The notes under the pieces are model-generated. The model ran no database searches and was not told the origin of the DNA. It saw only the letters and a program-made list of their open reading frames with translations. The position numbers and the translations under genes were made by a program. A DNA stretch of 64,000 nt from Acidimicrobiaceae bacterium (GTDB lineage Bacteria > Actinomycetota > Acidimicrobiia > Acidimicrobiales > JAUTXP01). Every line of letters starts with the position of its first letter. Positions within the stretch are counted from its first letter, which is position 1. The DNA lies in assembly GCA_030837965.1 (NCBI GenBank), contig JAUTXP010000030.1, forward strand, positions 1 through 64,000, given 5' to 3'. Of the stretch, positions 13,396-61,541 are shown in pieces.

Positions 13396-13462
13396 CTTCT
13401 TCCCGACTGGAGGACATAGCCCGCCGATTCCGCAGTCCATGTCCTCCAGACGTGGGGGGAAG
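13396..13462 (+). repeat. Palindromic element, family A copy 1
   Basis: A perfect 11-bp stem CTGGAGGACAT (13407-13417) / ATGTCCTCCAG (13439-13449) encloses a 21-nt loop. Outer strands CTTCTTCCC and GGGGGGAAG can also pair using G-T wobbles. It lies between the convergent livF and the NPCBM gene and may terminate both. The sequence recurs at 14833 and, reversed, at 61419. Confidence 0.85.
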
Positions 13463-14832: not shown

Positions 14833-14875
14833 CTGGAGAACATAGCCCGCCGATTCCGCAGTCCATGTCCTCCAG
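14833..14875 (+). repeat. Palindromic element, family A copy 2
   Basis: CTGGAGAACAT (14833-14843) pairs with ATGTCCTCCAG (14865-14875) with one mismatch. From GACTGGAG through CAGACGTGGGGGG it differs from copy 1 by a single base and has the same orientation. The two copies bracket the NPCBM gene pair. Confidence 0.85.
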
Positions 14876-14917: not shown

Positions 14918-15505
14918 TTAGCGGGAGGTGCGGCGGCGCCGCGTCGCGGTGGCGCGGGTGGCGGCGGTCGGCTCGAGCTCGGCCGTTTCGCCCGTGGGGT
15001 CGCAGATGCGGCAGGCGGACAGGCCCTCGGCCATAGCGGCCTGGACTGGCATGGCGGCCAGGTCCTTGCCCGTGGCCAGCCGACAGTCGGGTCGGTGGAA
15101 CGACGTGCTGCCCACCACGACCATGCCCGACCCCAACGACCCAGCCGACGACGACCCAGCCGACGAGGATGCGGCCGACGAGGCGCCGGAGGTCGAGCCC
15201 GACCCGTTGGTGCCGCCCAGCCCGGTGCCCAAGGCGTTGGCCAGCCTGGCGATGGCGTTGTTCAGGTCCTGCAACTGGCCCTCGATGATGGCCCGGTCCC
15301 GCCTGGTGTTCTGGACCACGACCAGGCTCACGCCGATCATCACCAAGGCCAGGCCGAAGAACCCGCCCGACAGCAGATAGGGGATCTGGCCGGACACGAA
15401 GTCGACGCCCGCGGCGCCGTTCCAGGCCAGCCCGATGGCGAGCACGCCCAGGGCGGCGCAGCCCAATCCGAGCTGGCCCCCAAGCTTCGCCCACGTGCGT
15501 TTCAT
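14918..15505 (-). CDS. Small membrane protein with C-terminal Ada-like cysteine motif
   Basis: The predicted 195-aa protein has two membrane helices near residues 9-31 and 40-63, a helical stretch (RRDRAIIEGQLQDLNNAIAR), a Ser/Gly-rich linker and a C-terminal motif resembling Ada/zinc-finger metal sites: FHRPDCRLA, then about 23 residues, then CRICDP. The tail is basic (TATRRRRTSR). The cysteines suggest a bound metal ion, but no enzyme is recognised. The start has TACGAT 6 nt upstream, and its first codon overlaps the stop of the methyltransferase gene. Confidence 0.7.
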   Translation of the reverse strand: MKRTWAKLGGQLGLGCAALGVLAIGLAWNGAAGVDFVSGQIPYLLSGGFFGLALVMIGVSLVVVQNTRRDRAIIEGQLQDLNNAIARLANALGTGLGGTNGSGSTSGASSAASSSAGSSSAGSLGSGMVVVGSTSFHRPDCRLATGKDLAAMPVQAAMAEGLSACRICDPTGETAELEPTAATRATATRRRRTSR

Positions 15506-36362: not shown

Positions 36363-36399
36363 CACCGACCGCTGACGCCGACCAACCCGCAACCCGTCC

Positions 36400-36434
36400 A
36401 TCTTTTCCACAGCACCTGCTGCTGTGGAAAAGAT
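36400..36434 (+). repeat. Palindromic element, family C copy 1
   Basis: A perfect 15-bp stem ATCTTTTCCACAGCA (36400-36414) / TGCTGTGGAAAAGAT (36420-36434) with a 5-nt loop, between convergent HD and trpS genes. No T-run follows on either strand, yet a bidirectional terminator is possible. A near-copy lies at 43530. Confidence 0.88.
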
Positions 36435-36441
36435 CGCGGGG

Positions 36442-37428
36442 TCAGCGGGGGAGGAGGCCCATGGCCGCCGCGGCCCGGGCGTAGGTGTCGGCGGCCATGC
36501 CCTCGGCCTTGGCCGCGCCCTTGTCCAGCACGGTGTGCACGTACGCGGGGTCGGCGGCCAGCGCCGCGTAGCGGTCCTGCACCGGTCGCAGATAGGCCAC
36601 CACGGCCTCGGCCGTGTCCGCCTTCAGCGGCCCGTACTGGGTGTAGGACGCAGCCAAGTCCTCGACCGGAGTGCCGGTCACCGCGCCCAGGATGGTCAAC
36701 AGGTTCGACACGCCGGGCTTGGCCTGCACGTCGTAGCGCACGTCGCCGCCGGTGTCGGTGACGGCCCGCTTGATCTTGCGCTCGATGTCCTTGGGGTCGT
36801 CGAGCACGTAGACGGTGCCTTGCGGTGAGTCGTGCGACTTGCCCATCTTCCCCGTCGGGTCCTGCAGGTCCATGATGCGCGCCCCCACCTTGGGGATGGA
36901 CGCCTCCGGCACCACGAACGTGTCGCCGTATCGGTGGTTGAAGCGCATGGCCAGGTCCCGGGTCAGTTCGAGGTGCTGGCGCTGGTCGTCGCCCACCGGG
37001 ACCCGGTCCACGTCGTACAGCAGGATGTCGGCGGCCATCAGCACCGGATACGTCAACAGGCCGGCGCGCGCCTCGCCCTCGCCCCCTTTGGCCGACTTGT
37101 CCTTGAACTGGGTCATGCGCCGCAGCTCGCCGAACGAGGCCGTGCACTCCAGCAGCCAGGTCAAGCGCGGGTGCTGGGGCACATGGCTCTGCACGAACAG
37201 CGTGCACACGTCCGGGTCGAGTCCCACCGCCATCAGCACCATGGTCAGCTCCAACGTGAGCGATCGCAGCGCGTCCGGGTCGACGTCGACCGTGAGGGCG
37301 TGCAGGTCGACGATGGGGAAGAGGGCGTCGGCGTCGTGTTGGTCCTCGGCCCAGAACCGCAGCGCCCCGAGCAGGTTGCCGAGGGTGGCATGGCCGGTCG
37401 GCTTCAGGCCGGAGAGCACGCGGGTCAT
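36442..37428 (-). CDS. trpS: Tryptophanyl-tRNA synthetase
   Basis: The 328-aa class I synthetase charges tRNA-Trp. The HIGH-type motif is in SGLKPTGHATLGN, the KMSKS equivalent is GKMGKSHD, and family strings DLHALTVDVDPDALRS and MAADILLYDVDRVPVGDDQ are present. TAACCT lies 7 nt before the ATG, and its promoter is back-to-back with that of scpA. Confidence 0.96.
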   Translation of the reverse strand: MTRVLSGLKPTGHATLGNLLGALRFWAEDQHDADALFPIVDLHALTVDVDPDALRSLTLELTMVLMAVGLDPDVCTLFVQSHVPQHPRLTWLLECTASFGELRRMTQFKDKSAKGGEGEARAGLLTYPVLMAADILLYDVDRVPVGDDQRQHLELTRDLAMRFNHRYGDTFVVPEASIPKVGARIMDLQDPTGKMGKSHDSPQGTVYVLDDPKDIERKIKRAVTDTGGDVRYDVQAKPGVSNLLTILGAVTGTPVEDLAASYTQYGPLKADTAEAVVAYLRPVQDRYAALAADPAYVHTVLDKGAAKAEGMAADTYARAAAAMGLLPR

Positions 37429-52069: not shown

Positions 52070-52116
52070 TTCTGGGCACCTTTTCTTGTCCCAGGGCGAA
52101 GAAAAGGTGCCCAGAA
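52070..52116 (+). repeat. Palindromic element D (18-bp perfect stem)
   Basis: TTCTGGGCACCTTTTCTT (52070-52087) and its exact inverse (52099-52116) enclose an 11-nt loop. A C-rich strand precedes and a G-rich strand follows. It lies between the zinc-ribbon gene and tRNA-Pro and may act as a terminator; only one copy is present here. Confidence 0.88.
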
Positions 52117-52160: not shown

Positions 52161-52238
52161 CGGGCTGTGGCGCAGCTTGGTTAGCGCGCTTGACTGGGGG
52201 TCAAGAGGTCGGGAGTTCAAATCTCCCCAGCCCGACCA
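52161..52238 (+). tRNA. tRNA-Pro (anticodon GGG), CCA encoded
   Basis: The acceptor stem pairs CGGGCTG with CAGCCCG, followed by discriminator A and an encoded CCA. The anticodon arm CTTGA-CTGGGGG-TCAAG places GGG at positions 34-36, and GGGAGTTCAAATCTCCC forms the T arm. It decodes CCC and CCU. A TAGCAT box lies 9 nt upstream. Confidence 0.97.
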
Positions 52239-59564: not shown

Positions 59565-61541
59565 ATGGTCGCGGCCGAGCCCCGTCGCCCGAGGAGCCGG
59601 GCGGGCGCGGCCGTGGCCGCCATGGCTCCGACTGCTGGCGCGTTCGTCGTGGCCCTGGTCCTCGGGCTGGTGGCCCTGGCCCACGCCCACCCGTTCGTGG
59701 TGGGCGACGAGCCCCATTACGTGGTCATGGCGTCCAGCCTGGTCCACGACCACGACCTCGACCTGGCGAATGACTACGGCGGCCTGAAGGGCGGGTCGAG
59801 CCGGGCCTTTCCCACGATGGCCCCCGACATCCACGCGTTCCACTATCGAGCCGGTGGGCCGCTGGCGCCGGTGCACGGCCCCGGCATGGCCGTCCTGCTG
59901 GCCCCGTTCATCGCCGTGCGCGAGACGATGTACTCGGCCCGCGTGGGAATGGTCGTGATGTTCGCGGCCTTCGCCGCGGCCCTGCTGTCGCTGTTGCGAG
60001 CCCTCGCAGGCAGACGCTCCCTCGCCGCCGTCGTCGTGTGGGCCTGCGTCATGGCCGCGCTGCCGGTCGTCGTGTTCTCCTTCGAGGTCTATCCCGACAT
60101 GCCCGGCGCCCTGTTCGTCGCGCTGGCCCTGCGAGCCCTCGTCAGTCGCCGCTTCACTCCGCTTCACGCGTTGGCCGCAGGCTTGTGCGCGGCGTGGCTT
60201 CCGTTTCTCCATGTGCGCTTCGGCATCCTGGCCGTGCCCCTCGTCGCCGCGGCCGTGGTCCGCTCGGTGCGGGCCGCGGGCGTGGACTCCTGGACCGCGC
60301 TTGGCTCGGCCCGACGCCGCACGGTCGTCGGCCATGCCGCCCCCGCGGCCGTGCTGTTCCTCCTGGGGATGGCCGCTTTGGCCGCCGTGTTCGTCCACCT
60401 GTACGGCAGCCCACTCCCCGGTGCGCCGTATCGCATCGAGCCGTTCCTGTCCGACAACCGCTTCACCCTGCTGAAGGCCTACCGGTTCGGCTTCGGCTCC
60501 CTGCTCGGCTTCAGCAGCGGCATGATCCCGTACGCACCGGTCTTCTGGTTCGGCGTGGTCGGGGTGGCCGCGTTCACTCGCCGAGTGGGTTGGCGCCTGG
60601 TCGCCGCCGTCGGCGTCGTGGCGGCCGCATATCTGCTCGTGGTGGGCGGCCACGGACCGGTTGTCAACGCGTTCCCCGGTCGCACCATGCTGGTGTTCCT
60701 GCCCGTGCTGGCCATCGGGATGCTGGGCGCGGTGCAGTCGTCGCGCACCGTTGCCGTGGCCGTCGTTCTCACCGCCGCAGTGGGCGCGGCCGTCAGCTAT
60801 CAAGGCGTGCGCCACTTGGAGCTGGTCTACGACGTGGCCGAGGTTCGGCTGCCCCTGGAGCGGCGGCTGGCTCCGGCATTCCCGTGGTTCTCGGTGCCCG
60901 CGGGCGGCGTCACGGCCCAGTTCGAGTTGAGCAAGCTGGAGCGCACGACCGGACGGGTGTCGTCCGAGGGCGGTACCGAGGCGGTCGAGGCTGAGCCGAC
61001 CACGAATGCCGCCGGCCTCTTGGCCCGCACCCCGCCCTTTCGAGTCCGGCCCGGCATGTACGACGTGTCGTTGGTCTTGACGACGCCCGCGCCGCAGCCA
61101 GTGCCCGAACGAGTGCTCGACGTCCAGGTGCTGCGGTCCTTTGACGGCGTCGTGTACGCCCACAGCACGGTGTGGTCGGCCGACGTCCCGGTCGGCGCGC
61201 CGTGGCGGATGCGGTTCATGGTGCCCGACCTCCAGCAGTTCGAGATCCGGCTCGACTACACGGGCGCGGGCTCAGTGCGGGCCACCCAGGCCGTCGTCGG
61301 GCCGGCAGGCACGGGGCCGCTGCCCATCCGAACCGCGGACAGCGACCTGGCCCTCACGGTGCTGTGGCTGGGCATGACCGCCGTCGCCATGGCCCTGTTC
61401 GCCCGTGCTCGCCCGGCTCTGGAGGACATGCCCTGCGGAAACGACAGGCCATGTCCTCCAGTCGGGGAAGAAGCGAGTGAGGGCCGAGCGGGTGCGGGCC
61501 AGCCGGCGGCATCCAGCGCCACTTACACTCCGGCTCCGTGA
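59565..61541 (+). CDS. GT-C fold membrane glycosyltransferase
   Basis: The predicted 658-aa protein has about ten helices. The first extracytoplasmic loop carries VVGDEPHYVVMASSLVHDHD, the GDEP-H motif of PMT/ArnT-like enzymes that use polyprenyl-phosphate sugars, and about residues 430-600 form a beta-rich external domain before a last helix (LTVLWLGMTAVAMALFARA). The final 40 residues (from about 619) are encoded by palindrome A3 and following sequence and look like read-through of intergenic DNA. It overlaps the pgsA-type gene by 4 nt. An alternative start lies 19 codons downstream. Confidence 0.82.
   Translation: MVAAEPRRPRSRAGAAVAAMAPTAGAFVVALVLGLVALAHAHPFVVGDEPHYVVMASSLVHDHDLDLANDYGGLKGGSSRAFPTMAPDIHAFHYRAGGPLAPVHGPGMAVLLAPFIAVRETMYSARVGMVVMFAAFAAALLSLLRALAGRRSLAAVVVWACVMAALPVVVFSFEVYPDMPGALFVALALRALVSRRFTPLHALAAGLCAAWLPFLHVRFGILAVPLVAAAVVRSVRAAGVDSWTALGSARRRTVVGHAAPAAVLFLLGMAALAAVFVHLYGSPLPGAPYRIEPFLSDNRFTLLKAYRFGFGSLLGFSSGMIPYAPVFWFGVVGVAAFTRRVGWRLVAAVGVVAAAYLLVVGGHGPVVNAFPGRTMLVFLPVLAIGMLGAVQSSRTVAVAVVLTAAVGAAVSYQGVRHLELVYDVAEVRLPLERRLAPAFPWFSVPAGGVTAQFELSKLERTTGRVSSEGGTEAVEAEPTTNAAGLLARTPPFRVRPGMYDVSLVLTTPAPQPVPERVLDVQVLRSFDGVVYAHSTVWSADVPVGAPWRMRFMVPDLQQFEIRLDYTGAGSVRATQAVVGPAGTGPLPIRTADSDLALTVLWLGMTAVAMALFARARPALEDMPCGNDRPCPPVGEEASEGRAGAGQPAASSATYTPAP
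61419..61461 (+). repeat. Palindromic element, family A copy 3 (inside a CDS, reverse orientation)
   Basis: A perfect 12-bp stem CTGGAGGACATG (61419-61430) / CATGTCCTCCAG (61450-61461) is followed by TCGGGGAAGAAGC, the reverse complement of the left flank of copy 1. It is translated as about residues 619-633 of the GT-C protein (LEDMPCGNDRPCPP). Confidence 0.87.
61524..61529 (+). promoter_or_regulatory. -10 box TACACT, leaderless spacing
   Basis: TACACT, inside the GT-C reading frame, lies 8 nt before the GTG at 61538. Confidence 0.45.

Follow-up and report, generated by a model that had tools for sequence, protein, structure and literature searches.

Two superfamilies of REPs, tagged GTAG and CGTC, have been published (PMC3733652). 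The CGTC REPs have stems of 8–9 bp, loops of 4–5 bp, and mostly CCA tails, are not associated with a dedicated transposase, and are listed from Proteobacteria, Chlorobi, Bacteroidetes, Spirochaetes, and Thermotogae (PMC3733652). The literature treats REP families that lack a transposase, namely the CGTC class, as an open problem. Published REPs are found on the 3′ side of genes, in gaps flanked by convergent or unidirectional genes (PMC3733652), and are known insertion targets (PMC1525189). REPINs, in which inverted conserved ends form a hairpin around a variable middle, need RAYTs (PMC3116915). A survey of 2025 counted putative REPs in Acidimicrobium ferrooxidans and other actinobacteria by structure alone (PMC12306157).

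In the 64-kb window (the whole stretch of DNA analyzed here, 64,000 nucleotides), the first-pass annotation had reported three copies of one palindrome, and all three were found at the positions it gave. The unit of this family, designated family A, was 43 bp long, CTGGAGGACAT-N21-ATGTCCTCCAG, with two 11-bp constant arms around a 21-bp middle. Copy 1 (13407–13449, minus strand; 13404–13452 with its half-site extensions, CGA ... ACG) was located between convergent genes, 18 bp past the stop codon of an ABC-transporter ATPase gene. Copy 2 (14833–14875, minus strand), with one arm substitution, CTGGAGAACAT, was located 42 bp past the stop codon of a minus-strand gene called at 14918–15466, and copy 3 (61419–61461, plus strand) was at the 3′ end of the ORF 59565–61541, 76 bp upstream of a CDP-alcohol phosphatidyltransferase gene. 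A whole-genome search, which the annotation had proposed, revealed that these were not the only copies. A BLAST search with the 67-bp unit found approximately 40 distinct places in the present genome (3.55 Mb, 88 contigs, assembly completeness 97.9%), and palindromes with exact 10-bp arms, TGGAGGACAT-N19..23-ATGTCCTCCA, occurred 93 times in 3.55 Mb, whereas the reversed pattern used as a control did not occur. The single 11-mer arm CTGGAGGACAT was present at 213 sites genome-wide, nearly all in tight inverted pairs, against none for its reversal. The genome-wide total was roughly 100 copies in both orientations, and the arms together with the fixed length far exceed chance expectation.

For the statistics of anatomy and location, 83 copies with their flanks were collected, sampled as stretches of genome. 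Exactly 43 bp was the length of 78 of the 83, and all 22 arm bases were exact in 69. The mean pairwise divergence was 0.2–1.1% (0.002–0.011) in the arms, a value biased low by the collecting pattern, which fixed most arm bases, whereas it was 42% (0.421) in the 21-bp interior. In a check free of this collection bias, run at fixed spacing and tolerating up to three mismatches over the 22 arm bases, only 99 places were found; slightly decayed copies therefore do not form a large class. The outermost 8 pairs of the interior were complementary at 5.90 of 8 positions, compared with a mean of 5.17 and a maximum of 5.62 in 1000 re-pairings between copies. The interiors were of two or more types, GGCCTGCGG-AWW-CCGC... 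and AGGTACCC...GGGTGTGCC, enclosed by identical arms. The potential stem was approximately 19 bp, consisting of near-invariant outer arms and a variable interior, with a mean predicted hairpin energy of −31 kcal/mol. The arm itself was not self-complementary, and the element was a single hairpin.

Just past the arms, the outward consensus was CCAG-W-C-S-G, in which W and S were often unpaired across the stem; beyond approximately 5 bp, the flanks matched only by low-complexity C/G runs, and an extended unit with common flanks was rejected for this reason. The earlier view that the copies share arms, loop motif, and flank was thus right for the near-identical arms and for the half-site extension, which is family-wide, but not for the loop, which is more divergent across the family than had been thought, nor for the longer match between copies 1 and 3, which is not a family feature. 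Neither target duplication nor flank sharing was found for family A, and it did not conform to a DDE-type MITE with terminal inverted repeats (TIRs) and target-site duplication. Because neutral decay would strike arms and interior alike, the contrast between them argues against simple parasitic decay; simple parasitic dispersal with neutral decay is insufficient, and in-place constraint or homogenization of the arms is also needed.

Genes around the 83 copies were called by a codon-usage caller trained on the 64-kb window. Gaps between called genes contained 75 of the copies: 24 were in convergent, 38 in codirectional, and 11 in divergent gaps, 2 were unclassed, and the other 8 overlapped a gene end. 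Baseline gaps of the same genome comprised 4 convergent, 28 codirectional, and 7 divergent ones, showing an excess of family A in convergent gaps (Fisher p=0.011). In the codirectional gaps, the element was nearer to the 3′ end of the upstream gene in 26 of 38 cases (p=0.034), and distances to gene 3′ ends were mostly 6–60 bp. At three loci (L086, L128, and L140), the element itself supplied the stop codon. The G-U form had no strand preference relative to transcription (10 vs 12), giving no sign of selection on the RNA.

Family A fits a REP in the broad sense. It is a short palindrome (43 bp, REPs being mostly 20–50 nt) with 93 or more copies; REPs have tens to hundreds. Its copies are mainly intergenic and predominantly 3′ of genes, in convergent and unidirectional gaps (PMC3733652), it is unevenly distributed among related genomes, and like REPs it occasionally overlaps a gene end and serves as an insertion target (PMC3733652, PMC1525189). 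It is unlike REPs in its fixed 43-bp frame, its potential stem of approximately 19 bp, and the lack of a GTAG tag. GTAG REPs have an unpaired GTAG end, whereas the outer half-site of family A was CCAG-W-C-S-G. Many copies start with CGTC (CGT-CTGG) and have a partly unpaired outer end, and no dedicated transposase was found, as with CGTC REPs; however, the tag was inconstant, many copies having CGA or GGA instead, and was absent in family B, described below, and 11-bp arms with a longer paired interior differ from a stem of 8–9 bp and a loop of 4–5 bp. The inverted conserved ends, hairpin, and variable middle resemble those of REPINs (PMC3116915), but family A is not a pair of inverted imperfect-palindrome REPs, and no RAYT accompanied it. 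Family A fits neither the GTAG nor the CGTC class nor the REPINs, and the term orphan REP-like family describes it best.

The first-pass annotation had described copy 3 as translated and had suggested that the element seems able to be absorbed by coding DNA. The palindromic elements of Rickettsia are repeats that are readable within an ORF. Copy 3 is literally within the ORF 59565–61541, but the coding statistics collapsed exactly at the element. The mean codon score fell from +0.21 ahead of copy 3 to −0.26 inside it and was −0.23 beyond it, GC3 dropped from 0.88 to 0.63 at the copy, and no other window of the ORF scored as low. The run-on frame through the copy (61419–61541, plus strand), consisting of the last 41 or so codons, had non-coding statistics, with a codon score of about −0.24 against +0.23 for the whole ORF. 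Copy 3 was the only one of the 83 wholly within a called ORF, where it begins this non-coding-like tail, and the other seven overlaps were at ORF ends; absorption into coding DNA is therefore unsupported as a general property. In the simplest reading, copy 3 stands at the original 3′ end of the gene, and the frame continues to a chance stop. Unlike the Rickettsia elements, family A gives a run-on C-terminal tail only, and its habitat is gene ends, not gene interiors. Among the relatives, no orthologue of this ORF was close enough for a comparison of the C-terminus.

Exact-arm copies of family A were absent from 58 order-level relatives and from 394 other genomes of the class. In a scan of public genomes, nine copies were found in the Acidimicrobiales MAG YX2bin35, two in the Actinobacteria MAG YU_71_112, and four in a Legionellaceae MAG, besides isolated chance matches. 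YX2bin35 and the present genome share syntenic genes with approximately 50–87% protein identity. The coding DNA could be aligned as far as the stop codon at two orthologous gene ends; at one (contig C25 of the present genome), family A followed the stop here and was missing at the YX2bin35 orthologue, and the reverse was the case at the other (C6 here, C12 of YX2bin35). This presence and absence in both directions indicated that copies have been gained or lost. The comparison of orthologous loci proposed in the annotation therefore bore out its expectation that the element is not the same at every locus, but did not yield precise empty sites: no clean one was found against YX2bin35, where the intergenic flanks have diverged, and what was observed is a presence/absence difference only. 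Dispersal of family A, favored by its genome-wide occurrence, both orientations, and variable presence at orthologous gene ends, is well supported. A plasmid or viral origin was rejected, there being no plasmid match and two isolated viral matches. The Legionellaceae copies were variants of a local 44-bp family, TTTGGA...TCCAAA, and their match to the arms may reflect convergence that the search itself selected. At the loci L031, L035, L038, and L044 of this MAG, the 44-bp sequence was TTTGGA, a variable block, and GACATGC...TCCAAA, and the variable block sometimes matched the family A arms.

Two other palindrome families were found in the window. Family B, TTCTGGGCACC...GGTGCCCAGAA (52070–52116, 43 bp between the CTGG and CCAG ends), was located upstream of a tRNA at 52161; it had 36 copies in the present genome, which like those of family A were intergenic with a bias to 3′ ends, and none in the three MAGs (YX2bin35, YU_71_112, and Legionellaceae). 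Family C, GCATTTGGGCG...CGCCCAAATGC (TTGGGCG...CGCCCAA; 706–748), had the 43-bp frame YTGG...CCAR, and more sites were present at L050:1424–1466, L017:1410–1452, and L131:992–1034; in two cases a family A copy lay nearby. All three families begin with YTGG and finish with CCAR on a frame of exactly 43 bp. When strongly palindromic YTGG...CCAR segments of 31–57 bp were collected from the sampled sequence, those of the three families were almost all at 43 bp, although this frame was noticed post hoc and its significance is to be discounted. At the locus L141, a family A copy was split in its loop by an insert of approximately 150 bp (L141:1974–2175), and removal of the insert restored exactly 43 bp and a normal interior. 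The insert carried family B and inverted CCGTGAC/GTCACGG motifs, and a second copy of it at L173 (contig C17:44188–44325) was 86% identical over approximately 140 bp. The insert units in L141 and C17 were both bounded by CGA, and the CGA on both sides of the family B unit in L141 was ambiguous as a duplication. The three families might form one 43-bp palindrome superfamily with interchangeable arms, in which an undescribed non-RAYT factor reads the arm sequence and the frame length; we offer this only tentatively and think it rather unlikely. If it were true, each arm type would represent a distinct specificity, coexisting with the others in one genome.

We consider it likely that family A represents an orphan REP-like family that spread through recognition of its arms by a trans-acting factor and provides gene-end hairpins in place. 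Copies of the 43-bp unit have been dispersed to gene 3′ ends and later gained or lost between related genomes, as the orthologous gene ends of YX2bin35 show. As for the mobiliser and the function, we infer that the trans-acting factor uses the near-invariant arms as recognition handles. It would probably be a protein that attaches to both arms or to the extruded hairpin, whether for copying the element or for binding it where it stands. A copy located at a gene end would form a strong hairpin (predicted mean −31 kcal/mol) in RNA or in supercoiled DNA, and this hairpin would most likely mark, protect, or insulate transcript 3′ ends, a role proposed for other REPs. The question of what recognizes the arms is directly testable in this genome, given its approximately 100 copies sharply divided into near-invariant arms and a free interior, the 43-bp frame common to three families, the nested insertion, and the different insertion points of a relative.

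The elements could instead be operator-like DNA sites, each with two 11-bp half-sites about three helical turns apart that are bound by a dimer of an abundant chromosome-organizing protein. The near-invariance of half-sites and length (78 of 83 at exactly 43 bp), the extension of the half-site consensus to WCSG, bases that are unpaired across the stem, and the frame common to the three families are all consistent with this explanation. On the other hand, complementarity is kept in the interior, though pairing is not required of a spacer separating protein sites, the gene-end bias is strong, and the distribution is too patchy for a core chromosome function; we regard operator sites as possible but doubtful.

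It is improbable that the elements act as bidirectional, U-less or Rho-assisted transcription terminators, resembling one another by shared selection without having been copied. Their 3′-end location, the convergent enrichment, and the strong hairpins with interior compensation would suit terminators, and the C-rich approach to the hairpin on both strands is as expected of Rho sites, but plain 3′ ends in the same 64-kb window were also C-rich. An intrinsic terminator is a GC-rich hairpin followed by a T-run, whereas a T-run of at least 4 within the outward 15 nt was present in just 1 of 166 family A flanks, and these flanks were purine-rich. Family A copies are therefore not canonical intrinsic terminators. 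Moreover, termination needs neither an 11-bp constant sequence nor a length of 43 bp, yet the arms are near-invariant, and the 394 other genomes of the class have no copy. The annotation had preferred dispersal to look-alike terminators, and the missing T-tail and arms constrained in sequence beyond pairing agree with it in disfavoring ordinary intrinsic terminators.

That family A consists of REPINs mobilized by a RAYT since lost, or missed in an incomplete assembly, is similarly hard to credit. The conserved inverted ends, variable middle, extragenic location, and high copy number match the description of REPINs (PMC3116915), and at 97.9% completeness the gene could be missing from the assembly. 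However, no Y1/HUH RAYT-type transposase (PF01797) was found in the present genome or in YX2bin35 and YU_71_112, the two actinobacterial relatives that carry family A, the GTAG tag is missing, and the individual arms are not palindromes; the association with a RAYT was rejected since the genome has no Y1_Tnp. No gene recurred beside family A copies. The gene between two copies at L115 was CbtA, and in YX2bin35 (L032:2863–3904) a gene for an AbiEi-antitoxin/DUF559 protein, with a restriction-like nuclease fold, had a copy on each side; this protein had no match in the sampled loci of the present genome or of YU_71_112. On this evidence, a copy-flanked gene was rejected as a common partner that would mobilize the copies. 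No dedicated transposase was found, and the mobiliser may have been lost. DNA-uptake-type signals paired as terminators, as in Neisseria, would also put inverted pairs of one short, constant sequence at the ends of genes, but uptake signals are mostly single, whereas nearly all 213 CTGGAGGACAT sites were paired and about half of the single-arm loci retrieved looked like chance coding matches, and this very improbable reading was rejected on the rarity of single arms.

A further palindrome in the window, CTTTTCCACAGCA...TGCTGTGGAAAAG (36392–36442), had arms resembling inverted DnaA-box-like sequences, and one or more other copy types of it were present in the genome.
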